The notes beneath the pieces are model-generated. The model saw only the letters and a program-made list of their open reading frames with translations. It did no database searches and had not been told where the DNA came from. A stretch of DNA of 44,729 nucleotides from a virus. Shown in pieces: positions 1 through 44,729 of this stretch; the stretch's first letter is position 1, and each line of letters opens with the position of its first letter. The position numbers and the translations under genes are program-made. Where the stretch lies: positions 1-44,729 of the IMG/VR virus record IMGVR_UViG_3300038415_000032, one strand, 5' to 3'.

Positions 1-149
1 GCCTTTTGTGTGTGTTCCTTTGTAACCACTTGCTTCTCATTAAAGTCTATGCCATCAAACGAGAAAGCCGTTTGAGGAGTAACGAGGCGAGCGGGAACGA
101 GCGACGGCGCAACGGGCGCGGGCGCGAAGGTGTTAACTTTGTTAGCCAT
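1..149 (-). CDS. Small protein, runs off the left edge (partial)
   Basis: Forty-nine codons are open from ATG at 149 to the window edge. The product starts MANKVNTFAPAPVAPSLVPA, a Pro/Ala-rich N-terminus, and continues to ...NEKQVVTKEHTQK. I do not recognise the family. The preceding micro-ORF (142..210) ends inside this gene, so translation is probably coupled. If the molecule is circular, the last two bases (GC) join the final base of the window to give GCG-TAA. That would end the protein at 50 residues, with an ATG one base later (44724), which fits a continuous leftward operon. Codon usage is GC-rich, like its neighbours. The function is unknown. Confidence 0.6.
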   Translation of the reverse strand, partial: MANKVNTFAPAPVAPSLVPARLVTPQTAFSFDGIDFNEKQVVTKEHTQK

Positions 150-210
150 ATGTTTTATTTGGATATTCACTCACGCTCGACTTGCCACGCGCTAAAGGTT
201 GCCACGTCAT
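142..210 (-). CDS. Micro-ORF of 22 aa, translationally coupled
   Basis: ATG at 210 shares its A with the TGA of the upstream ORF (TGATG), and the TAA stop at 142-144 overlaps the start of the next gene (149). The predicted peptide begins MTWQPLARGKSSVSEYPNK. It has no recognised motif. The tight start/stop coupling on both sides is the main argument that it is translated; on length alone it would not be called. Confidence 0.35.
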   Translation of the reverse strand: MTWQPLARGKSSVSEYPNKTYG

Positions 211-2050: not shown

Positions 2051-2536
2051 ATGGCAAGATTAAAAGACCGTCAAAGACAGATACCCGGAGGCTTCCGCTT
2101 CTCATTGCCAGAGGCCGGCTACGAGTCCAGCCCGTTCTCCTCGTTCACCCAGATCGCCAACAGCGTCATCAAGCTCACCAACGCGAATCCAAACCTCGCC
2201 CAGAAATACGGTTGGCCGATTGATCGCGCCGCCGTAGAGGACTGGGTGGACGACTTCAACGCCTCCATCTGCAAGATGAACGGCTGGCGGGAATACTACG
2301 TCGATGGAGGATCGGACAAGCACACGTCCACCATCCACCGCGACCACTGGCCGCTCTGGGCCAAGAGCGTAGCCACCATGAAGCATCCTGACGACAATGG
2401 AGTTGGCGACACCGTTGAGCGCATCATCGGCTCCGACAACTCCGACGCCCTGAAGGACTGGTATCAAAAAGTGTTTCACCGGGTCTGTGGTTGTGATGGC
2501 CGCAAGCAGACCTGGAACATCAAATACCCCTATTGA
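2051..2536 (+). CDS. Hypothetical protein, 161 aa, first rightward gene
   Basis: ATG at 2051 is placed directly after a promoter. The product (MARLKDRQRQIPGGFRFSLP...) is soluble, rich in Trp and Asp, and contains PFSSFTQIANSVIKLTNANP and an AVEDWVDDFNASICKMNGW segment. It ends with a Cys-containing tail (VCGCDGRKQTWNIKYPY). I do not recognise a catalytic motif. The TGA stop (2534-2536) falls where the first R box of the attC-like site that follows should be. This is the arrangement of an integron gene cassette, gene then attC in the same direction. It may therefore be a captured cassette gene. Confidence 0.75.
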   Translation: MARLKDRQRQIPGGFRFSLPEAGYESSPFSSFTQIANSVIKLTNANPNLAQKYGWPIDRAAVEDWVDDFNASICKMNGWREYYVDGGSDKHTSTIHRDHWPLWAKSVATMKHPDDNGVGDTVERIIGSDNSDALKDWYQKVFHRVCGCDGRKQTWNIKYPY

Positions 2537-2624
2537 CGCCTCAAGCTGAGCCAAGCCGCCAATGAAACCTCAAGAAAAACAGACTGACGCACGCGGCGGC
2601 TTTGGCTCCGGCGATGTGTTAGGC
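2531..2624 (+). other. attC-like recombination site with a degenerate first R box
   Basis: The L box GAGCCA (2548-2553) and its complement TGGCTC (2603-2608) flank a central segment. The latter is followed by a 9-base spacer and the R box GTTAGGC (2618-2624). This is the same spacing and nearly the same sequence as the right-hand sites at 42842-43364, in the opposite orientation. Ten bases before GAGCCA an R box RYYYAAC is expected, but the window has TATTGAC (2531-2537), which includes the stop of the upstream gene. The site is therefore probably inactivated on one side. Gene-then-site order matches an integron cassette. Confidence 0.65.
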
Positions 2625-2698
2625 GCCATGTAATGTAACATAACATAATCATGTCACATGACGCACGCGGCGGCTTTGGCTCCGGCGATGTGTTAGGC
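2585..2698 (+). repeat. Two identical 40-bp direct repeats, each the 3' half of the attC-like site
   Basis: Bases 2585-2624 and 2659-2698 are identical, starting TGACGCACGCGGCGGCTTTG and ending TGTTAGGC, with a 34-bp AT-rich spacer. Each copy contains L box TGGCTC, a 9-base spacer and R box GTTAGGC. The second copy has no matching 5' half. The structure looks like repeated recombination or tandem duplication at an attC site. With only two copies and no further periodicity it is not a CRISPR. Confidence 0.85.
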
Positions 2699-2741: not shown

Positions 2742-2791
2742 GCCTAACAAATAGTTCAGCGGCGGCACGTCCGCTGCAACGTAAGTTAAAT
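2742..2791 (+). other. Compact attC-like site
   Basis: R-type box GCCTAAC (2742-2748) and GTTAAAT (2785-2791, fits GTTRRRY) enclose TTCAGCGG (2755-2762) and CCGCTG-C-AA (2771-2779). The inner arms pair apart from one extra C, the kind of unpaired base that integron integrases use for strand choice. At 50 bp it is near the short end for attC. It lies 19 bp before the first glycosyltransferase gene. The whole interval 2537-2809 is otherwise non-coding and consists of these sites. Confidence 0.5.
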
Positions 2792-2809: not shown

Positions 2810-3547
2810 ATGTCAAAAATCCTCACTTGTATTCCAGTGAAACCTGGAATGAACCCTGGTCTGATGGCGAAGTGCCTGTCCTTGGCCGGCTCAATGCCGT
2901 CCTTCAATCCGGTTCATTCGATGGCCACCTACTACGACCACACACCAATCGCCAGGGAGCTGTCTGACCATACACCATGGAGCCGGGTGTGCCGCGCCAG
3001 GAACATGATGCTTGACCGAATCAAACTCGACCAGTGGGACTATCTTCTGTGGGTGGATGCCGACGTGGTGGATTATCCAATGGATATGCCGACACGCCTA
3101 ATCGCCGGGAATCCCGGAGGAGTAAGCGCGCCGATGGTTTTGATTGAAGGCCGGAAGGAGTTCTACGACTGGGCGGCGTTCGTGATGAAGGGCAAGGACA
3201 CCGTGAAACCCACCAACCGCCATCGCGTATGGGGCCGCAATCTGCAACATGAAGTCCCGTATTGGAACGAGTGCGACGCACACACTGAAGATGACCCGCC
3301 ATCGCTTGCGAAGCCGTTCTGGTATCAGCCCAAAGAGACCGTGGTGGAGATGGACTGCGTTGGCACGATCACCATGGTTCCCTCCATCCTATACCAGCAT
3401 GGCGCAAGGTATGAAGATCATCCGGCGTTCACCGACCATCATCCAATCTGCAAGTATGCGCGCAGCCAAAACCTGAAGGTCACGGTTGACCGAAGCATTA
3501 TCGCGCACCACGCAGACCTTCCGAAATGGGGTGAAGCATGGCATTGA
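2810..3547 (+). CDS. GT-A fold glycosyltransferase (Anp1/GT62-like)
   Basis: The 245-aa product contains SRVCRARNMMLDRIKLDQWD followed by YLLWVDADVVDYP. This is the DxD-type metal/nucleotide-sugar site (D83, D85) after a conserved Arg-Asn-rich helix, as in Anp1-like and related GT-A enzymes. The rest is His/Trp-rich (HHPICKYARSQNLKVTVDRS) and consistent with a compact single-domain cytosolic enzyme with no signal or membrane anchor. It overlaps the next glycosyltransferase by ten bases, so the pair is co-translated and may act in sequence. Substrate unknown. Likely roles are decoration of virion proteins or of a host surface glycan. Start ATG 2810, with no strong ribosome site. Confidence 0.75.
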   Translation: MSKILTCIPVKPGMNPGLMAKCLSLAGSMPSFNPVHSMATYYDHTPIARELSDHTPWSRVCRARNMMLDRIKLDQWDYLLWVDADVVDYPMDMPTRLIAGNPGGVSAPMVLIEGRKEFYDWAAFVMKGKDTVKPTNRHRVWGRNLQHEVPYWNECDAHTEDDPPSLAKPFWYQPKETVVEMDCVGTITMVPSILYQHGARYEDHPAFTDHHPICKYARSQNLKVTVDRSIIAHHADLPKWGEAWH

Positions 3548-4403: not shown

Positions 4404-6665
4404 ATGCGCTTCGACAACAACCGCGTGGTGGAGGAAATCTGCGACCAGCTGCGAATGGCGGACTACCCGCGCGGCCTGAACCGGAAACGAATCAACGACC
4501 TGTTCAACGGAGTCAAGCCATTCGAGGACGACGACGCCAACCCGGTCAATGTGAACTTCCTGGAGGGAACCCGACTGGCGCACGACGCGCGCGCACAGTT
4601 CTACGGCGCGTTCCTGAAACCGGGCAGGTTCTTCAATATCACCGTTGACTCCGGCCCCAAGCACAAGCGGCGCACCTACTCGGATGTCATCACCGCGCAG
4701 ATGAACAAGGTGGTCAAGCGCTCCATCCCCTACTTTGAAACCTTCCGAAGCAAGTTCGCCATGGACGTGCTGCACGGCATCGGGCCGTCAGCGTGGCGCG
4801 ACGCCGACAGCTGGCAGCCGTCCGCTATCGGCATCGAGGACGTGGGCATCCCCGCGAACACCCTGCTCTCAATGGAGAACCTTCCGTTCTTCTACATCTA
4901 CCGCAGCTACACCACGCCGGAGCTGATGAAGCTGACGCGAGACCGCAAGAATGCGGCTGAGGCCGGATGGAACATGGCTCTGGTTGACCAGGTTGTGAAG
5001 TGGGTTGACAAGCAGATGGTGGACTTGATGGGAACTAACCAGCCGGAAATCTGGTCGCCGGAGAAAATGTCCGAGCGCATCAAGGGCGACGGCGGATTCT
5101 ACGCCTCCGACAAGGTTCCGACCATTGACTGCTTCGACTTTTATTTCTGGAGCGACGAGGGCGGCACGGCCGGCTGGAACCGGCGCATCATCCTCGACGC
5201 CTGGAGCACCCCGTCCGGCGCGGGCGGTCAGGTGGAAAGCCGGCAGCAGAAAAAGGATTCCGACTTCATGCGGACAGGGTTCCTGTTCAACCCCGGCAAG
5301 CGCAAGTATGCCGACAAGCTGTCCGAGCTCATCAGCTTCCAGTTCGCCGACCTCAGTTCGGTGGCACCCTTCCGATACCATTCAGTCAGGTCGCTCGGGT
5401 TCCTCACCTACGCGGCCTGTCATCTTCAGAACCGGATGCGCTGCCGGTTCACCATGTCCGCCTTCGAGGCGGCGATGAACTACTTCCGGGTCAACTCGTC
5501 CGACTCCGCAGAGCGCGCGCTGAAAGTCGAGATGATCAACATGGGGGTCATTGACGACACGGTGAAGTTCGTTCCGGCTGCGGAGCGGTGGCAGGTCAAC
5601 GCCGATCTCATCGAGCTGTTCCTGCGCGAGAACAAGTCCATCATTGACTCAAATTCCGCGTCATTCACAGCGCAGGCGGCGAACACCCCCGGCGACCGAA
5701 AGACCAAGTTTCAGGTCATGGCCGAGGCCGGCCAGGCCACCTCGCTGGTGAGCGGCGCCCTGAACCAGGCCTACCACTACCAGGTTCCTGAATACCGTGA
5801 AATCATCCGCCGGTTTATGAAGGCGAATTCCGGCGACCCTGAGGTGCGCGAGTTCCGAGCGGCCTGCCTTCTGCGCGGTGTTCCTGATTCAGTCCTGGAT
5901 GCCGACAGCTGCGAGGTGGAGCCGGAGCGCGTGATGGGTGCGGGCAACAAGACCATGGAGATGGCGATTGCCGAGCAGCTCATGCAGATGCGCCACCTCT
6001 ACGACCCGGAGCCGCAGCGAGACATCCTGCGCCGCGTTACCACCGCCATCACCGACGACCCCGACTGGGCGATGACGCTCGTGCCGGAGGAGCCGCTGAA
6101 GATTTCCGACACCGTCCACGACGCGCAGCTGTCCATCTCCGTGCTCATGGCCGGCTATCCCGTCGCCGTCAAGACCGGCCAGAACCACAAGGAGTTCATC
6201 CAGGTTCTGCTCACCGAGATGTCGCAGGAAATCCAGGGCATTGAGAAGCAGGGCGGCATGGCGTCCGCCGACAAGATCAAAGGATTCAACATGGTGGCCA
6301 ACTGCATCAGCCAGCACCTGAAACTTCTGTCGCAGGACAAGGAGGAGAAGGAGTTTGTCACCGAGATTGGCAAGCAGCTCGGCAAGGTGATGAACCTCGT
6401 GCGCGCGTTCCAGCAGCGGCTCGAGGAGCAGATGAAGAAGAAGCAGCAGCAACAGCAGGCTCCCGACCCAAAGGTTCAGTCAACGCTCATGCTTGCGAAG
6501 GTCAAGGCGAAGAACGCCACCGAGACCCACGCGCAGAAGATGGCGCAGAAGGAGCTGGCCTTCCAGCAGTCGCAGAAACTTGAGAGCCAGAAGACCACGG
6601 CTGAAATCAACCGTGAGAACTTGAGGGCGGTGCACGAGTTCAAACGTGGAGGGCTCAAGTCCTGA
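4404..6665 (+). CDS. Portal protein (head-tail connector)
   Basis: The 753-aa protein has the size and composition of podovirus portals: an alpha-helical N-terminus, a central region with FRSKFAMDVLHGIGPSAWRD, and a long C-terminal half. The last 150 residues are Gln/Lys-rich coiled coil (EEQMKKKQQQQQAPDPKVQS), corresponding to the barrel/crown of long portals. It forms the dodecameric channel at the capsid vertex and docks the terminase and tail. Position at the head of the morphogenesis operon, followed by scaffold and capsid, fits. No sequence signature is decisive for portals, so the call rests on size, helical content and context. The stop overlaps the next ATG (TGATG). Confidence 0.8.
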   Translation: MRFDNNRVVEEICDQLRMADYPRGLNRKRINDLFNGVKPFEDDDANPVNVNFLEGTRLAHDARAQFYGAFLKPGRFFNITVDSGPKHKRRTYSDVITAQMNKVVKRSIPYFETFRSKFAMDVLHGIGPSAWRDADSWQPSAIGIEDVGIPANTLLSMENLPFFYIYRSYTTPELMKLTRDRKNAAEAGWNMALVDQVVKWVDKQMVDLMGTNQPEIWSPEKMSERIKGDGGFYASDKVPTIDCFDFYFWSDEGGTAGWNRRIILDAWSTPSGAGGQVESRQQKKDSDFMRTGFLFNPGKRKYADKLSELISFQFADLSSVAPFRYHSVRSLGFLTYAACHLQNRMRCRFTMSAFEAAMNYFRVNSSDSAERALKVEMINMGVIDDTVKFVPAAERWQVNADLIELFLRENKSIIDSNSASFTAQAANTPGDRKTKFQVMAEAGQATSLVSGALNQAYHYQVPEYREIIRRFMKANSGDPEVREFRAACLLRGVPDSVLDADSCEVEPERVMGAGNKTMEMAIAEQLMQMRHLYDPEPQRDILRRVTTAITDDPDWAMTLVPEEPLKISDTVHDAQLSISVLMAGYPVAVKTGQNHKEFIQVLLTEMSQEIQGIEKQGGMASADKIKGFNMVANCISQHLKLLSQDKEEKEFVTEIGKQLGKVMNLVRAFQQRLEEQMKKKQQQQQAPDPKVQSTLMLAKVKAKNATETHAQKMAQKELAFQQSQKLESQKTTAEINRENLRAVHEFKRGGLKS

Positions 6666-10397: not shown

Positions 10398-11978
10398 ATG
10401 AGTTGCCCTACTGCGATAATTGCGGCCTGCGATTTTCCTAATTTTCTTGTCGATCAGACCCCGAAGTTTGACGAAATCATCATGGAAGACATCCGGCCCA
10501 CCGATGGCTGGCTGTTGAACGTATCCACCGGCACCACACCGATGGGAACCCCGACTGAAATCACCCAAGACCGTTTCCGCCATGTGTTTCCGAACACCAC
10601 GAAGGCGTGGAGCCGGGTCGTGGCCAATGGCCCCGGCTGCCAGGGCAACCCCTGCGACCCGACCGAACATCAAATCGGCTGGGGTGCTGACCGTCTGACT
10701 TATTACAGCGAACAGCAGACCTGGTCGACGCCCCTCATGTGCTACGACCAAGACATGCACATCACCCAGGCCGAGGCGCACATCTCCCAAATCATCAACG
10801 AAATCCTCCGGCCGGCGACGACCGACATTTCGAGCGCCTTCCTACGCAAACGCGCGCTGGTGTGGGCGAAACAGAAATGGGCTGCCAACAGCTCCATGAC
10901 CCCGTTCACGTTCCAGTGGACTTCCCCGGTCAGCGGCGCGCTCGGCGGGCCGAACGGCGACGAGGAAATCTACTTCTACACCAACATCAGCCCGGGCAAC
11001 GTCTATCTGCTGGCCCCGCAGATGTTGCAGGCCCGGTTCAGCCCGCTCATGCGGCGCGGCTATGCCGGCAAGAACCCGTTCAAGGAGACCACTGCGTTCA
11101 TCGAGCTGGTCACGGACATGGACACCTGCTTCCAGCTGGAAAGGCTGGCGAACAACGGCACCGGCGGAGCGCCCACCATCTCCGGCAACTGGCGCTTCAC
11201 CGAATGGAACGCGGCCAGCGAATACTGGCGCTATGGTTTCAGCGGCCAGATTGGCAACTTCCAGGTGCGCGTGGACGAGCTGGGTCTCCGGTTCAACTAC
11301 GTCAACGACCTTGGCGCGAGCTACACCAACCGCTACCAGTATCAGGTCATCCTGCCCTTCCGCAACGGCATCACCTCCGGCGCTGGCGGCTCTCCCGGCC
11401 TAGGCTCGGATGCCAACCCGGACTTCGATACGGCTCAGTTCGCCATGAGCTACATCTGGCACAAGAAGGCCATGGAGCTGCTCGTCCCGGACGCGGCCCC
11501 GCTCAACTCGGAACTGCCCTTCGGCCATCGCGACTTCGGCGGCAAATGGCAGTTCCAGATGCACGACCTTGGTGCCGATGTCAACGGCAACGCCATCAAG
11601 AACGCGTGGCAGAACAAGGGCCGGTTTGCGTCCTGGTTCAAGTATTACGTCCGCCCGCTCCACACGGAGTTTGCGGAAGCAATCTTCCACAAGCGCCAGC
11701 AGAGCGTCATCCCGAACATCCAGACCGCCAACACGGATGCGACGATGGGCTACCCGGTGCAGGAATACAACAGCGCGTTGCCGAACTGCCCGCTGCCCGG
11801 CAGCTGGCCGAACGGCCGCGTTGCGGTCGCCACCGGCTTCGGGGTTGACCCGGTTCCGTCGGTGAGCGTGGTCATCCAAGGCGTGTCGGTCGCCATCAGC
11901 GACGGCAGCACGGCGAACACGACCCCGGTGGACACGTTCCAGACCACTGCGCTGGACGCGAACACGCTCGACGCGTAA
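10398..11978 (+). CDS. Major capsid protein
   Basis: The 526-aa product starts MSCPTAIIAACDFPNFLVDQ. It has the long, mixed alpha/beta, Trp/Tyr/Asn-rich composition typical of coat proteins, for example GNWRFTEWNAASEYWRYGFS and NAIKNAWQNKGRFASWFKYY. It sits between scaffold and tail genes and is the only gene with both its own promoter and flanking hairpins, as expected for the most highly expressed structural gene. The C-terminal 50 residues (VSVVIQGVSVAISDGSTANT...) are Ser/Thr/Ala-rich and may be a surface extension. HK97-type fold is presumed, not shown. There is no strong ribosome-binding site. Confidence 0.8.
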   Translation: MSCPTAIIAACDFPNFLVDQTPKFDEIIMEDIRPTDGWLLNVSTGTTPMGTPTEITQDRFRHVFPNTTKAWSRVVANGPGCQGNPCDPTEHQIGWGADRLTYYSEQQTWSTPLMCYDQDMHITQAEAHISQIINEILRPATTDISSAFLRKRALVWAKQKWAANSSMTPFTFQWTSPVSGALGGPNGDEEIYFYTNISPGNVYLLAPQMLQARFSPLMRRGYAGKNPFKETTAFIELVTDMDTCFQLERLANNGTGGAPTISGNWRFTEWNAASEYWRYGFSGQIGNFQVRVDELGLRFNYVNDLGASYTNRYQYQVILPFRNGITSGAGGSPGLGSDANPDFDTAQFAMSYIWHKKAMELLVPDAAPLNSELPFGHRDFGGKWQFQMHDLGADVNGNAIKNAWQNKGRFASWFKYYVRPLHTEFAEAIFHKRQQSVIPNIQTANTDATMGYPVQEYNSALPNCPLPGSWPNGRVAVATGFGVDPVPSVSVVIQGVSVAISDGSTANTTPVDTFQTTALDANTLDA

Positions 11979-12314: not shown

Positions 12315-12701
12315 ATGGCCTACGATTTCCAAACCCTGCTGTCCAGTGTGACGGACTACGCGGCCTCTGGAGAAGTCTCCGGCCCGCAGCTCTTAAAGCT
12401 GGCCTTGCTCAAATCCATCGCTGCAACGATGGCTCCTACCATGCCAACCGACTACCAATCTCTCCTGTCCAACACCAATGTCCCCGGCTGGCTGTCCTGC
12501 GCCTACCCCAGCGTTGGTCAGCTCCTTGAACTGTCGCTGCTGTCCATCATCGCCGGAGGTTCCGTCGGTGGCGGCGCGTCCATCACCACCGGCAACTACG
12601 CCGGAGGGACGCCAAACTTCACCCCCGCCAGCGGAACTGGCATCGCCATTGACACCAGCAACAACCGCGTCTGGTGGTATTTCAACGGCGGCTGGAATTG
12701 A
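12315..12701 (+). CDS. Structural protein with a C-terminal beta module, 128 aa
   Basis: The start is placed at ATG 12315, directly after the preceding stop; upstream in-frame sequence is antisense-like. The N-terminal two thirds are helical with hydrophobic repeats (LLKLALLKSIAATMAPTMPT, LLELSLLSIIAGG). The C-terminus, GTPNFTPASGTGIAIDTSNN then RVWWYFNGGWN, matches the module repeated three times at the end of the tail protein (20745-21191): G-x-P...P...G-x-x-x-D...W-x-x-x-G...W. It may be a head or tail accessory protein sharing that binding module. Confidence 0.6.
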   Translation: MAYDFQTLLSSVTDYAASGEVSGPQLLKLALLKSIAATMAPTMPTDYQSLLSNTNVPGWLSCAYPSVGQLLELSLLSIIAGGSVGGGASITTGNYAGGTPNFTPASGTGIAIDTSNNRVWWYFNGGWN

Positions 12702-40274: not shown

Positions 40275-41374
40275 GCCTTCACCTTCTTCAGCGAAGACTT
40301 TGCGACCGATGTGGTCACGTCCGCTCCGACGATTTCCTCCACAACGGCTTTCAATCCCTTGCCCTTCTGCTTGGTGGCCGCGCGCGTCATCTCCTCAAGC
40401 GCGGTCTTGGAGATGGTTGACTTCATCAGGAAGTCCGCCAGCGGGATGCCGTGCTTGGATGCGCGGTCGAACACCGACTGGAGGTTGATGATGGTTGAGC
40501 GGGTCGAGCCCGAAGCCATGGCATATCCCGGAACTGCGTCAGGCGTGGCTGTGGCGAGCTTCTCCATCTCGTCCCATGCTTGGTTGAGCCACTTCTGAGC
40601 GATGTCGAACTGGTCGCAGAACTGCTGTCGCTGCTCTGGTGTCCAGCTCGCCACCGGAACGTCCACCAGCGACTTCTGAACCGGCACGAGCGAGCCGGCG
40701 AACTGGTTGTATTCCTTGCAGGACGACTTCGCCTTGCAGAACTTGCACTGGATTTCACCCGCCGTCCGTGGTGCGCCCGGCTTATTGCTGGCATTGACAC
40801 GGTGATACATCTCCTCGCGCGCCCGCATGAGGTCGGGACGCTTGTAGATGCACAACTGCGGTGAGTGCGTCACAAGCGGCTGGATGACCGCCACGGCCAA
40901 TTCCTCGAGCAGCGCGGTGTTGATGTCATACAGGCAGGCTTGGTCGCGCAGCTGAATATTAGTGGGCGATTCAGGTATCTCGCCCACTAGCGACTTGATT
41001 TCCACGATGAGCGCCTTCGTGCCCTTGCGATGCACCCGGTCAAGCTGGCCGCTGTGCTGCAAACTGTCCGGCCACTTCGCCCAGAACCGCTTTTCGCACA
41101 CCGGCCTTGGAGTCAGGCCTTCCACTTCCTTGCCGAAGTATTGCACCAGCAGCTTCTTCTCAATCTCAAGGAATGAGAGGTAGATGTCCTGCTGTCGCAC
41201 CGTCAGCCCCTTGTCGTCACCGGCAGCCAGTGCCGCGTGGAGCTCGTTCCCGAACGTGGCGTCGTCGCTATTCTTGTCCGGAATGTTTGCCTGTGCCAGA
41301 TGCCGGCCAGCGCAGTTTGAGTCCGCCTGCGCGTTGCTGGCGCTTGTCCATGTTCCGCGTTCCTGTTCGCTCAT
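40271..41374 (-). CDS. PD-(D/E)XK exonuclease, RecB/Cas4-like (DUF2800 type)
   Basis: The 367-aa protein has the nuclease core SGQLDRVHRKGTKALIVEIK with Asp112 and E-x-K at 125-127. One Cys near the N-terminus (NCAGRHLA, Cys21) and three in CKFCKAKSSCKEYNQFAG give the 1+3 cysteine arrangement of iron-sulfur Cas4/AddB-type nucleases. The C-terminal 150 residues form a helical extension. Next to RecT it should resect dsDNA ends to give ssDNA for annealing. It overlaps the recT stop by four bases. Confidence 0.85.
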   Translation of the reverse strand: MSEQERGTWTSASNAQADSNCAGRHLAQANIPDKNSDDATFGNELHAALAAGDDKGLTVRQQDIYLSFLEIEKKLLVQYFGKEVEGLTPRPVCEKRFWAKWPDSLQHSGQLDRVHRKGTKALIVEIKSLVGEIPESPTNIQLRDQACLYDINTALLEELAVAVIQPLVTHSPQLCIYKRPDLMRAREEMYHRVNASNKPGAPRTAGEIQCKFCKAKSSCKEYNQFAGSLVPVQKSLVDVPVASWTPEQRQQFCDQFDIAQKWLNQAWDEMEKLATATPDAVPGYAMASGSTRSTIINLQSVFDRASKHGIPLADFLMKSTISKTALEEMTRAATKQKGKGLKAVVEEIVGADVTTSVAKSSLKKVKA

Positions 41375-42447
41375 TGCGACACCCCTTTCTGGTTCTTGAT
41401 GCGGTTGAAGATGTCAGCGCCCTGTTCGTAGAGCATATCCACGACCGACGAATCCATCTTGTCCAGCGCCTTTTCATTGGACACGCCCAAATCGGCGACG
41501 AACGCGACCACCTCGTCCTCGGTCAGGCTGGCGAGCTGAATCAGACCCTTAACAGCCTTCAGTTTGTTTAGACCGCTTTCTGGCTTGGACTCCTCCTTCT
41601 TGGGAGTGACGTTCTTCTTCACCGCCACATTCTCGTCAGTCGGAACCACAGTGGCCGGTTCGCGTTCTACCAGCTTCTTCGGCTCCTTGAACTCCGGTTC
41701 AGCCGCCACCGGCTCCCTGCCATTGTCCACATAGCTGACATCGCCAGTGTCGGCGTCAATCACAGCTCCGCCGTCCATCTTGATTGCTTTTTCCATCTGG
41801 ATGGACTTGGGGCCGTAGTGGTTCAGCAGAGACTTCTCGACGGTCTTAATGGCCATCTCGTCCCGCTTGGTTATCCATAGGCAGTTGGCCTCCTTGTCCG
41901 GCTTGCCCTTGGAGAACTTGTATTGCTTGGAATACATCATGGCGTGGCTCTCAATCTCCTCTGCCGTCCAGTATTCTCCCCGCTCAAAACCGTTGAGCAG
42001 GCGGAAACGCGCGGCATAGCCAATAACCTTGTCGCTGGTCTTCTTGGACTTGGCCAGCTTGAGAAGGCCGTCCAGCTCGTCGTATGATTCCAGCTCGCCT
42101 TCATAGACCACAGTGGAGCCGAACGACTTATACTTGCCGGAGCGCATCGCCAGCTGGATGAACCCCTTGAATCCTATTTGAAACTGGCACTTGTCTCCGT
42201 ATGGAATCAAATGTGCCTCTCCGATGTTTGGGTCAATGGATAGGTCGAGCGCAGCCGCAGTAAATGCTGCACCAATCACCGATGATGGGTCGCATTTCTG
42301 GAGCTGGAACGACTGATTGACTATCTGGACAAGCGCCGCCGCAAACTGCGGAGCGCGCTCACCAATCACTTCCTTGAGTCGGTTCTTGACCGTCTCGTTT
42401 TGAACCAAGTCCTTTAGGGACGAGGATTTTATCAATGCACTGCTCAT
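41371..42447 (-). CDS. recT: RecT-type single-strand annealing protein
   Basis: The 358-aa product shows the RecT core: NPxIGE-like region DPNIGEAHLIPYGDKCQFQI, GFKGFIQLAMRSGKYKSFGS, GYAARFRLLNGFERGEYWTA and EEIESHAMMYSKQYKFSKGK. It anneals complementary strands for recombination-dependent replication and repair with the exonuclease that follows. The C-terminal 120 residues (after VDNGREPVAAEPEFK) are Lys/Glu-rich and less conserved. Start ATG 42447, three bases after the stop of the small zinc-knuckle ORF. Confidence 0.93.
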   Translation of the reverse strand: MSSALIKSSSLKDLVQNETVKNRLKEVIGERAPQFAAALVQIVNQSFQLQKCDPSSVIGAAFTAAALDLSIDPNIGEAHLIPYGDKCQFQIGFKGFIQLAMRSGKYKSFGSTVVYEGELESYDELDGLLKLAKSKKTSDKVIGYAARFRLLNGFERGEYWTAEEIESHAMMYSKQYKFSKGKPDKEANCLWITKRDEMAIKTVEKSLLNHYGPKSIQMEKAIKMDGGAVIDADTGDVSYVDNGREPVAAEPEFKEPKKLVEREPATVVPTDENVAVKKNVTPKKEESKPESGLNKLKAVKGLIQLASLTEDEVVAFVADLGVSNEKALDKMDSSVVDMLYEQGADIFNRIKNQKGVSQ

Positions 42448-42450
42448 GTT

Positions 42451-42591
42451 TTATGTTTCCTTTTTGTTTTGGTTTTCTACACCACCCGGAATGGGTGGAA
42501 AATAATCTACTCTTGGCCTACCAATGGTCAAAGCCCGCTTACCACACTTCGGACATCGTCCAACGCTGTCAGTTCCGCTGTCGCGGTTCAC
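42451..42591 (-). CDS. Zinc-knuckle protein lacking a normal start (at least 46 aa)
   Basis: The frame is open from a TAG inside the attC-like site to TAA 42451-42453, three bases before recT. The only start is GTG 42591. The product contains SVGRCPKCGKRALTIGRPRV then DYFPPIPGG, with one CxxC and a possible partner Cys just upstream of the GTG (T-C-D-V-N-R). The gene looks 5'-truncated by the attC-like element rather than complete: that Cys would be lost if GTG is used. It may be a remnant of a native gene co-transcribed with recT. Confidence 0.45.
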   Translation of the reverse strand: MNRDSGTDSVGRCPKCGKRALTIGRPRVDYFPPIPGGVENQNKKET

Positions 42592-42629
42592 GTCGCAAGT
42601 CGGCGGTGGCTCAGCTTTCTACGTTAGGC
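42558..42629 (-). other. Truncated attC-like site at the end of the cassette block
   Basis: Read on the minus strand, R box GCCTAAC (plus 42623-42629), a 10-base spacer and L box GAGCCA (plus 42607-42612) match the other sites, and the upstream gene stops inside. The complementary L box TGGCTC is absent. A GTTGGAC (plus 42558-42564) fits the R consensus but has no paired L box, so I treat the 3' half as lost or replaced by the recT-side sequence. Confidence 0.55.
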
Positions 42630-42814
42630 GGCAATAGTTGCGTTTCGATAAACGAGCGAGTGCCGATTGCCAGATGACGCGCCCGGCGATTCCGTGGCAT
42701 GACCGAGATTTGTTCAAGAGCTTTGATGGCGACTTGAAGCGCGGCGCAGGTTCGTTGGATGCCGTTGTGGTCAGTCCATTTTACGCCGCAGGATTTGCAT
42801 TTTGTTTTTGTCAT
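42611..42814 (-). CDS. Cassette-type small zinc-binding protein, 67 aa
   Basis: Start ATG 42814. The N-terminus carries KCKSCGVKWTDHNGIQRTCA: C-x2-C-x6-H with a later Cys, a small metal site. The C-terminus QLLPPNVES is encoded by the attC-like site, whose spacer supplies the TGA. It is flanked by sites 42842-42949 (upstream) and 42558-42629 (downstream), so it is one cassette. Function unknown. Confidence 0.65.
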   Translation of the reverse strand: MTKTKCKSCGVKWTDHNGIQRTCAALQVAIKALEQISVMPRNRRARHLAIGTRSFIETQLLPPNVES

Positions 42815-42841
42815 AGATTTTATGTCAGTTCACGTTTTGCC

Positions 42842-42949
42842 GCCTAACAAGTCGCCGGAGCCAACCGCCGTTGGCGCTGGCCGTTTGGCGACAAGTCGCA
42901 GGTTGTTGGATGATTTAGTTCCACGGTGGCTCAGCTTTCTACGTTAGAC
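42842..42949 (-). other. attC-like recombination site (108 bp)
   Basis: Minus-strand order: R box GTCTAAC (plus 42943-42949), 10 bases, L box GAGCCA (42927-42932), variable centre, L box TGGCTC (42858-42863), 9 bases, R box GTTAGGC (42842-42848). Box pairing and the one-base difference between spacers match integron attC sites. The gene 42931-43239 stops within the first spacer. Confidence 0.8.
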
Positions 42950-43239
42950 ATCGCGGCGGACGCCTTCTCCGTCAGTGAGTCGAACACTGACACATTATGA
43001 TTGCCAACTTCCTCGGATGCTGCACAGACGGCGCAATCGCAATTCGCCTTGCACCGCCCCTGTTCCCACACGGCGTTGTAGAGTTCTATGAGATGCTTTA
43101 CCAAGTGCCCCTCGGCTTGGTTCAGAGATACCGTTTCTATTTTGCGGGCGATTGTGGCAGGTATTACATCGCGGTCGCCAAATCTATCGGCAGACCCGGT
43201 GCAGGAGTCGGTTATCGGTGTTTTGATTTCAGTTTTCAT
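42931..43239 (-). CDS. Cassette-type hypothetical protein, 102 aa, cysteine-rich centre
   Basis: ATG 43239. The product MKTEIKTPITDSCTGSADRF... has a helical middle (LNQAEGHLVKHLIELYNAVW) and RCKANCDCAVCAASEE (C-x3-C-x-C-x2-C), probably metal-binding. It ends SAAMSNVES, encoded by the attC-like site. The first 19 bases are identical to the start of the 40113 gene. Its role is not known. Confidence 0.65.
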   Translation of the reverse strand: MKTEIKTPITDSCTGSADRFGDRDVIPATIARKIETVSLNQAEGHLVKHLIELYNAVWEQGRCKANCDCAVCAASEEVGNHNVSVFDSLTEKASAAMSNVES

Positions 43240-43255
43240 ATTTGTGTATCGCTAT

Positions 43256-43364
43256 GCCTAACAAGACGCCGGAGCCAACGGGCGTTATCGCTTTCAGTTT
43301 TTCTCATAAGATTTCTGGTTGGCCGAGTCACGGGTCGCCCGTGGCTCAGCTTTTTTCGTTAGGC
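43256..43364 (-). other. attC-like recombination site (109 bp)
   Basis: Minus-strand order: R box GCCTAAC (plus 43358-43364), 10 bases, L box GAGCCA (43342-43347), variable centre, L box TGGCTC (43272-43277), 9 bases, R box GTTAGGC (43256-43262). R and L boxes are perfectly complementary. The gene 43346-43528 stops within the first spacer (TGA). Confidence 0.85.
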
Positions 43365-43528
43365 ATCGCGGCCACGTCGTTGATTTTACCATGATACATT
43401 CTGATGCCGCATTTAGGACATTTTGACCAGAGCGTGCTCATCTGCCGGAGTTCGGATTTGCACTGCGGGCAGATTGGCGGATTGTAGTCTTTCGGGCCAT
43501 TTAGCTGCATGTATCTTTTCTTTGTCAT
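43346..43528 (-). CDS. Cassette-type zinc-ribbon protein, 60 aa
   Basis: The product begins MTKKRYMQLNGPKDYNPPIC and has two CxxC pairs (ICPQCKSELR, KCPKCGIRMY), a zinc ribbon. It ends AAMPNEKS, encoded by the attC-like site. It shares its cassette with the PAPS-reductase-like gene, ten bases upstream, and no attC lies between them. A tiny ORF (ATG just before the PAPS-reductase stop) links the two genes. It may be a nucleic-acid-binding or partner protein of that enzyme. Confidence 0.65.
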   Translation of the reverse strand: MTKKRYMQLNGPKDYNPPICPQCKSELRQMSTLWSKCPKCGIRMYHGKINDVAAMPNEKS

Positions 43529-43538
43529 AATTCAGTTT

Positions 43539-44339
43539 TCATCTTGCACACCATGAGCACATTGTTTTCCGTTCTCTGCCGCGTGTTTCTTTCGGCACAC
43601 GCCCAGCCGCAAAGCATTTTGCCAGTTCTTCCATGCTCGCCGGCCACGAGTCCCGCTGGTCAGAGCGGAAGGTGTGGCCAGCCCATTTCTCGATTGCGAT
43701 TCCTTCTGCGTAGCGGTCGGGATGGTCGCGCCACAGTTCATACCATTCGATGAGCCGTTGGAAGAAGCACCAGTCACAGTCCGTCCGAGGTGGCGGCATC
43801 ATGTCGCGCTCTTTGAGGTAGGAGAGCACTTTGTTCAGTCCCCATCCCCATCGCACCAGCGGGAAGTCTTGAGTCATTCCATCGCGGCCAGTCCAGTCAG
43901 TTCCTTCACGCGGGTCATTGCCCAGCACTTCATCGGCGCGGATGCCGACGTAGGAGATTGCCGGTTTTAGCTTTTCCGCATACGACATAAATGGCTCGAT
44001 TTTTATGAGGCGCGTGCAGAAGCGCATCCGCCAGTTCGGCAGCGTCTTGAATTTTACGATGAGTTCGACCAGCGACGGTGCGGGGATTCTGACGAGCGGC
44101 TTGCCGAGTGCCTTTTCGAGCTTCGCCCAGTGTGCATCCATCGCCGGGAGTTCGCGCTTGGTTGGCGTGATACAGAATTGATAGTCGTCGCTCGGCTCGC
44201 GTTCGGCCAGTTCTATTGCCATCGCCGTTGAGTCTTTCCCGCCGGACAGTGCCACGATTCTAGCCGGACGTGCTAACAAGTCGCTGGAGACGACCCGGAT
44301 TGGCGCTGTCAGTTGTCCGTTGAGGTTTTCGGTTTGCAT
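43539..44339 (-). CDS. PAPS reductase/DndC-like ATP pyrophosphatase
   Basis: The 266-aa product has the PP-loop SGGKDST (residues 32-38). Further on are the family strand YVGIRADEVLGNDPREGTDW and an acidic/aromatic C-terminal region with two CxxC pairs (DCDWCFFQRL, TMCSWCAR) that could hold an Fe-S cluster. Such enzymes adenylate a substrate and transfer sulfur (sulfate assimilation, tRNA thiolation or DNA phosphorothioation by DndC). The phage partner genes of the Dnd system are absent. ATG 44339 lies in the centre of the attC-like site 44271-44379, so the first 24 codons come from that site. A downstream TTG is possible. Confidence 0.85.
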   Translation of the reverse strand: MQTENLNGQLTAPIRVVSSDLLARPARIVALSGGKDSTAMAIELAEREPSDDYQFCITPTKRELPAMDAHWAKLEKALGKPLVRIPAPSLVELIVKFKTLPNWRMRFCTRLIKIEPFMSYAEKLKPAISYVGIRADEVLGNDPREGTDWTGRDGMTQDFPLVRWGWGLNKVLSYLKERDMMPPPRTDCDWCFFQRLIEWYELWRDHPDRYAEGIAIEKWAGHTFRSDQRDSWPASMEELAKCFAAGRVPKETRGRERKTMCSWCAR

Positions 44340-44379
44340 AGATTTTTGGTTCCGGGCGTCTCAGCTCCGGTCGTTGGGC
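44271..44379 (-). other. attC-like recombination site with compensatory L boxes (109 bp)
   Basis: Minus-strand order: R box GCCCAAC (plus 44373-44379), 10 bases, L box GAGACG (44357-44362), centre, L box CGTCTC (44287-44292), 9 bases, R-like GTTAGCA (44271-44277). Both L boxes differ from those of the other sites, yet remain complementary. The last base of the R box departs from the GTTRRRY consensus. It contains the start codon of the PAPS-reductase-like gene and the stop of the 45-aa gene. Confidence 0.75.
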
Positions 44380-44498
44380 GTCATAGCAACGCGCTTTGGT
44401 TTGCGCGGGCGTCCGCCGAGCCTGCCGTTCTCGCGAGCAGCTTTCGACTTGGCCGCGCTTTTGATTTTACCGAGCGCCACGGCAGCGGGATTTTTCAT
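44361..44498 (-). CDS. Cassette-type basic protein with RENGRLGGRPRK motif, 45 aa
   Basis: ATG 44498 overlaps the stop of the upstream gene (ATGA). An in-frame start at 44546 is less likely, since it overlaps that gene fully. The product MKNPAAVALGKIKSAAKSKA then ARENGRLGGRPRKPKR has a Lys/Ala helix followed by a G-G-R-P-R-K segment, like an AT-hook-type DNA-binding tail. The C-terminus MTPNDRS and its TGA come from the attC-like site. Small proteins with this motif are widespread in mobile DNA; role unknown. Confidence 0.65.
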   Translation of the reverse strand: MKNPAAVALGKIKSAAKSKAARENGRLGGRPRKPKRVAMTPNDRS

Positions 44499-44724
44499 TC
44501 TGGTTCGATGACGTAGTTGTGTTTCATCTTCAATCCAGTCTCCCACGTTTTGAGAGCTTCGTTGAAGATGTCCTGCATGGAGTCATCCGGGCTGCGCTCT
44601 ATTTCACGCACAGCCTCGGTGATCGCATTCAGGAGTTTTGCGTTGGCGCTTATTTGGTTTCGTTGTTGATGCCAGCCGTCAGAAAGTAGTGGAGCATATC
44701 GCGCTGCCACCCGTTCATTTCCAT
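44495..44724 (-). pseudogene. Small hypothetical protein, probably frameshifted (76 aa if repaired), near the right edge
   Basis: ATG 44724 gives MEMNGWQRDMLHYFLTAGIN then NETK and a stop. Adding one A to the AAA of AAATAA (plus-strand near 44652-44655) continues as ISANAKLLNAITEAVREIER, ending ...NYVIEPE at TGA 44495-44497. The span of 230 bases is 231 minus one. Without repair, a GTG at 44710 opens a 71-codon frame with a less natural N-terminus. If circular, it follows the stop of the 1-149 gene by one base. Confidence 0.5.
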
Positions 44725-44729
44725 GTTAC

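Follow-up and report, generated by a model that had tools for sequence, protein, structure and literature searches.

attC sites with oppositely oriented cassette genes in an uncultured phage, and related arrays beside integron integrases

The virus record IMGVR_UViG_3300038415_000032 of IMG/VR was analysed over its whole length of 44,729 bases (the window). Its region 41,371-44,729 carries minus-strand genes with repeats at their boundaries. The repeats are true attC sites like those of Verrucomicrobiota, recombinable in principle, and the genes between them run against the polarity of the sites. We consider it likely that the window represents, as an integrase-less example, a phage form of the integron whose cassette genes are flipped. 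Roughly 50 further viral contigs show the same flip, many of them together with an integron integrase of their own, which suggests a previously unreported phage integron version that swaps small early genes, such as those for DNA methylases. While attC clusters in phages are already known, the flip is the new part within the literature searched. The evidence comprises the structure and polarity of the sites, the coding direction of the genes, the recurrence of the arrangement, the integrases of relatives, phage-specific cassette edges and a cassette gene shared between unlike phages.

The sites were scored with a covariance model (R1) built from 32 bacterial attC sites, nearly all from Verrucomicrobia subdivision 3/Limisphaerales and relatives, with no phage sequence included. 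In the R1 structure, 93.9% of cells are paired and 12 of the 22 pairs show changes on both sides; none of 500 shuffles scored as high. R1, a wider model (R2) and a direct repeat gave the following elements in the window:

43256-43364, plus strand: attC; R1 89.7 bits, E 2.4e-23; R'' GCCTAAC, R' GTTAGGC, L'' with two extrahelical bases
42842-42949, plus strand: attC; R1 74.4 bits, E 5.2e-19; R'' GCCTAAC, R' GTTAGAC
44271-44379 (R1 match 44272-44379), plus strand: attC; R1 60.2 bits, E 5.2e-15
42537-42629, plus strand: attC remnant; R1 27.4 bits, E 1e-5; L'-R' half kept, L''-R'' half gone
2528-2624, minus strand: old attC with degenerate R', after the plus-strand gene 2051-2536; R1 41.2 bits, E 1.2e-9
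2659-2698, minus strand: exact duplicate of the R''-L'' half of site 2528-2624, a 40-nt direct repeat
2742-2791, minus strand: short attC-like element; R2 24.6 bits, E 0.0016

The covariance-model scores rule out chance repeats, and Rfam and tRNA scans of the window gave no matches. A preliminary description of this DNA had located the three full sites and a truncated fourth correctly and had missed the old site at 2528-2624; the scores with the purely bacterial R1, all far above chance, bear out its assignment to attC. The inverted R boxes (RYYYAAC/GTTRRRY) that it reported are present in 42842-42949 and 43256-43364. In 44271-44379, R' (GTTGGGC) is intact while R'' at the 5' end (TGCTAAC) is degenerate and does not fit. 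The concerted change of both L boxes in this site, from GAGCCA/TGGCTC to GAGACG/CGTCTC, is real. Complementary L boxes and two extra bases, 6 bp apart on the L'' arm, are found in all three full sites. A scripted search demanding intact R boxes and the inner extrahelical base recovered two of the three, the third being identified by inspection and R1. For the bottom strands, the enforced-fold probabilities of the attC hairpin are 0.04 (42842-42949), 0.18 (43256-43364) and 0.24 (44271-44379), near or within the bacterial range (median near 0.28, quartiles about 0.16 to 0.32).

In attC sites, the arm adjoining R'' bears extra unpaired bases. The aadA7 site displays this feature as established. 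On the plus strand of the window, it is the left arm that has the extra bases, GCC[G]GAGCCA[A]C versus GCTGAGCCAC. Since these two bases (outer C/G and inner A) put R''-L'' on the left, the attC polarity in the window is plus. It is this asymmetry that is decisive; the spacers, previously given as 10 and then 9 bases, read 9 on the left and 10 on the right of the plus strand. All credible genes around the plus-polarity sites lie on the minus strand, opposite to attC:

41371-42447, minus strand: RecT-family annealing protein at the downstream end of the array; PF03837 3.8e-42
42611-42814, minus strand: cassette gene for a CxxC protein; stops inside the attC remnant 42537-42629
42931-43239, minus strand: cassette gene, 102 amino acids; stops inside attC 42842-42949; phage-type leader ahead of the ATG
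43346-43528, minus strand: cassette gene for a zinc-ribbon-like protein scoring below Pfam cut-offs; C-terminus MPNEKS*, stop inside attC 43256-43364
43539-44339, minus strand: PAPS-reductase-domain cassette gene; PF01507 6e-7, phrog_424 8e-30; longest start inside attC 44271-44379
44361-44546, minus strand: small gene; stops inside attC 44271-44379; its homologue adjoins attC in the viral contig G005

The preliminary description had each site follow a gene of the same direction. Measured against attC polarity this is wrong, since the genes occupy the minus strand and terminate within the sites (PNxxS*): the minus-strand reading CCT AAC GAA AAA AGC TGA yields ...PNEKS* inside the site, and the R'-L' side of attC 43256-43364 contains the stop codon of gene 43346-43528. 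The sites at 2528-2791 likewise oppose the plus-strand gene 2051-2536. The window holds attC sites in an early (RecT/exonuclease) operon of a phage, as had been described, but not an ordinary host-type array. No canonical cassette, with its gene parallel to its own attC, was found in it.

The reversal recurs in other viral contigs. In bacterial loci with the same attC type, the better-coding open reading frame (ORF) between neighbouring sites is parallel to attC in 91 of 109 cassettes; among strong cases the figure is 50 of 51. Across 12 viral contigs with sites of this type, it is antiparallel in 52 of 57 cassettes (29 of 31 strong cases), and all 12 contigs are mostly reversed. The difference between reversed cassettes in viral (52/57) and bacterial (18/109) DNA gives a Fisher p of 9e-22 by cassettes and 5e-7 by contigs, the latter count being the safer one because cassettes within one array are not independent. 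In contig G007, two arrays lie on opposite strands and each is antiparallel to its own genes. Family matches, which do not depend on codon statistics, agree with this: 48 reversed ORFs match 13 Pfam and 31 PHROG families, including methyltransferases, sigma-70 region 4, radical SAM proteins and PAPS reductase, whereas 26 ORFs in attC direction have no Pfam or PHROG match. Polarity of attC and polarity of the gene are separable. Other attC types offered too few viral comparators to be used: two stretches of the Vibrio type, of which one is parallel and the other antiparallel to its neighbours, and none of the class 1 type. A few cellular contigs (L023, L041) also have reversed cassettes and could be prophage or misbinned phage DNA.

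These counts bear on the view taken in the preliminary description, in which ordinary cassettes were captured from a host chromosome, as in published phage clusters of attC sites. The window sites are nearly identical to Verrucomicrobiota attC, there is phage precedent, and Shewanella phage M16-3 and Vibrio phage p16 have intI with mostly divergent neighbours, as in host integrons. Such capture leaves 52 of the 57 viral cassettes with a gene polarity opposite to that of host cassettes, and the cassette edges argue against it as well. On the gene strand, a leader like AGCGATTAACGACATACAAATATG follows R'' at 14 of 83 viral sites and at 0 of 158 bacterial ones; a tail, GCCGCGAT, precedes R' at 7 of 83 and 0 of 158, respectively. 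Both motifs are phage-only in this comparison, and the leader is absent from 286 Verrucomicrobiota genomes. In the same 286 genomes the zinc-ribbon gene, the sole cassette gene searched, gave one weak match only. Because the edges and the searched gene are nearly absent from these genomes, the cargo looks like a phage pool, not like integron cargo in transit between hosts, as had been proposed earlier; we regard host capture as very improbable.

The zinc-ribbon gene also connects unlike phages. Over 86 bp, its DNA is about 98% identical to a gene of G005, and both genes stop inside attC, while the window and G005 otherwise share almost nothing. The identity is mosaic and lies within the gene, not only at R'. 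A scan with the leader pattern brought no additional contigs, and isolate phages searched with the consensus site gave only chance-like matches, in mycobacteriophage tape-measure genes. Among the cassette products of the viral loci with integrase relatives described below are Dam and D12 methylases, DUF5131, Mom, an Acb2/Tad1 hairpin protein and a PAPS reductase.

The flipped genes and the sites form a regular pattern. A gene begins directly outside R'' of one attC and runs to the R'-L' portion of the following site, ending at it or within it; the attC often supplies the stop codon, as TAA (R box) or TGA (L box). As the genes span from R'' of one site to R'-L' of the next, the array constitutes one sense-strand early operon, and in relatives with intI this operon reads into intI. 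Of the reversed phage ORFs, half have their stop codon no more than 21 nt into attC, versus 14 of 91 bacterial ones. This would suit a role at the level of RNA or translation, in which attC acts in one direction as a terminator of antisense transcription and also provides a stop codon and an intergenic hairpin, and recombination is incidental. A clear terminator-like hairpin with a T6 run is present in attC direction at 43325-43356. T runs of at least 4 after the L' stem occur in attC direction at 19 of 83 viral and 45 of 162 bacterial sites, and almost never in the other direction (0 and 1). With a T run in only about a quarter of the sites, we keep termination as just one part of the picture of the flip. 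The R boxes, the extrahelical bases and the nearby IntI genes are left unexplained by an RNA role, which makes it a remote alternative to a recombining array.

Some relatives of the window do encode an integrase. Contigs G006 and G004 encode IntI-class proteins adjoining their arrays, with TIGR02249 scores of 263.6 and 259.4 bits, formally just under the cut-off of 265. In the PDB, the G006 protein matches VchIntIA best (2a3v, 5.8e-48), with the integron-specific insertion aligned. Genes for portal, terminase or head proteins are present in both contigs. Three flipped cassettes of G006 run straight into intI, and about 30 bases ahead of the intI ATG an isolated R box, GCCTAAC, is a candidate attI; by inspection, the arrays of both contigs have attI-like R boxes. 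In G004 (L103), two similar attI-like stretches, GCGAACYGTTAARGTGAA...CCTTGTTA, at 10560-10610 and 12364-12412 flank the IntI-class gene and its neighbours.

An alignment scan of viral contigs found at least 555 IMG/VR stretches with relatives of integron integrases, of which the best 80 (L113-L192) were kept. Many of the best stretches carry the integron-specific insertion. Besides G006, 41 of these 80 loci hold at least one cassette by R2: 37 are mostly reversed, 2 forward and 2 tied, adding up to 111 reversed against 11 forward cassettes. An independent search for the extrahelical base gave the same polarity as R2 at most loci where both apply, with disagreement at L124. In the 41 loci, the position of nearly all attC sites relative to intI, upstream and on the other strand, is that of a normal integron; only the genes are flipped and run with intI. 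Genes for terminase, portal, tail fibre and Mu-like transposition are among the neighbours. On an IntI tree, at least 3 changes between phage and cellular labels are forced (sampling is narrow and the bootstrap not settled), so the phage forms are probably of more than one origin. In the same tree (L215 and L170), class 1 IntI1 is placed inside a large clade otherwise made up of viral-contig integrases, with moderate support and narrow sampling.

Alternatively, the array could be a passive relic: attC would have been acquired at the boundaries of phage genes on one or a few occasions and then passed between phages by ordinary homologous recombination, driven by the phage's own RecT/exonuclease, with no integrase action and no function. 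The mosaic identity within the zinc-ribbon gene fits this course of events, as do the RecT and exonuclease genes adjoining the array and the degraded sites in the window. By Pfam, a tyrosine recombinase is absent both from the window and from 10 of the 12 other viral contigs with the same attC. A relic is difficult to reconcile with the 37 further viral loci, among the best 80, that combine a mostly reversed array with an IntI-class gene, with the conservation of R boxes and extrahelical bases despite diverged L boxes, and with the 16-19 sites per array in one contig. We judge a passive relic to be unlikely.

Several observations weigh against a phage integron with flipped genes as the explanation of the window. 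No tyrosine recombinase/integrase was found in it by Pfam, although the record may be incomplete. One full site has a broken R'', at least two further sites are remnants, and in plain DNA folding only 43256-43364 beats shuffles (z about -3 on both strands), the folds of the other two full sites being no better than shuffles. R2, on which the counts at the IntI loci depend, was trained partly on phage arrays; 5 of the 57 viral cassettes and the IntI loci L141 and L132 are not reversed. An exact empty/occupied pair of one phage was not found, and read-through past T runs, proposed below, covers only the sites that have such runs.

The arrays sit in diverse phages. The phage-type matches of the window are RecT, exonuclease, helicase and primase (Pfam, PHROG), while no clear match to Pfam or PHROG was obtained for those large late proteins that were tested. 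Seven diverged window proteins are common to viral contig G011 and few to the other contigs with this attC, which indicates the diversity of the carriers. Those contigs encode portal, terminase, head, helicase and primase proteins. G005 (L087/L088, contig 3300050029_000207; about 58.6 kb, 9 attC sites) has a 127-bp terminal direct repeat and is therefore probably a complete phage genome; it encodes no tyrosine recombinase by Pfam. When the ends of the window (1-170 and 44700-44729) are joined, the minus strand shows a natural stop (TAA) and a nearby ATG; the record, though classed as linear, may thus represent a circular genome that is close to complete. Directly after the late-region attC remnants lies a glycosyltransferase-like gene (2810-3547; Anp1-like, below the Pfam cut-off).

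Two viral contigs that lack attC (L004/L005) encode a RecT 61% identical to that of the window, and in L004 a homologue of gene 42611-42814 is located directly upstream of RecT. This fits an insertion of attC at gene ends but does not prove it, and the contigs are too diverged to date or place such an event. The flip could have arisen in this way, by attC inserting against transcription at the ends of existing phage genes. In a phage integron with flipped genes, single-stranded phage DNA would allow the attC bottom strand to fold, and an integrase would cut at R' and exchange cassettes. In relatives this would be their own IntI; for the window, it would be that of the host or of another phage. 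RecT-type annealing at the repeats of roughly 100 bp may add to the exchange. Phage transcription would pass the sites in the direction that has no T run after the L' stem, and the flip may persist because it permits read-through from the promoter. It may also keep phage and host cassettes unexpressed in each other's arrays.

More tentatively, we propose that phages have repeatedly built flipped-cassette integrons, with array and integrase in one early operon, that they trade a phage-only pool of counter-defence genes, and that the flip insulates this pool from host integrons with the same attC. This broader proposal is plausible, and we hold it with less confidence than the assignment of the window itself. 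If true, many uncultured phages run their own integron of inverted polarity, beyond carrying stray integron pieces, and stock it with methylases, Mom and putative anti-signalling proteins. It would offer a testable modular mechanism for the exchange of counter-defence genes among phages, and small reversed ORFs between attC sites in viral contigs would be a new hunting ground for anti-defence proteins. That the two polarities can be separated bears on cassette formation. Integron finders already output the attC strand, making direct screening for the flipped class possible.

Clusters of attC sites in virulent phages have been published: Qi et al. 2023 described them in 17 phage genomes, and IntI1 recombined 5 of 6 tested sites (PMC9892861). 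The clusters of attC sites lacking integron integrases (CALINs), such as those of TJE1, PH101 and P12002L, resemble the window in having no intI, in occurring in virulent and other phages and in carrying methyltransferase cargo (PMC9892861). With at least two attC sites and no intI nearby, the window qualifies as a CALIN, within a possibly incomplete record; a complete integron, with intI, attI and array, was not found in it, no integrase having been detected. The TJE1 and PH101 arrays were described as typical in direction, with bacterial structure (PMC9892861), whereas the window genes are antiparallel to attC. An R1 search of TJE1 and P12002L found no site of the present kind, and the scripted finder also misses the published TJE1 sites. 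In the open-access literature, we found no report of flipped phage arrays; subscription papers and preprints lay outside the search.

The sedentary chromosomal integrons of Verrucomicrobiota (Limisphaerales and relatives) share attC sequence and fold with the window. Of the 13 Verrucomicrobiota genomes tested, 9 carry an intI above the TIGR02249 cut-off, as do 36 of the 141 sampled. Host genes are parallel to attC (91/109) and phage genes antiparallel, and the leader and tail motifs differ. Virus Rctr41k (L193, KX853513), from a methane-oxidising enrichment, has an IntI relative at 4680-5678, annotated xerD ('xerD integrase-like'), inside an all-plus gene block, a likeness to the arrangement described here; unlike in the window, R2 detects no attC. 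Complete integrons in temperate phages, namely Shewanella M16-3, Vibrio anguillarum p16 and P1 with a class 1 integron, also place intI in a phage genome. The neighbours of intI in M16-3 and p16 mostly diverge from it, whereas in the IMG/VR phages the cassette genes run with intI.

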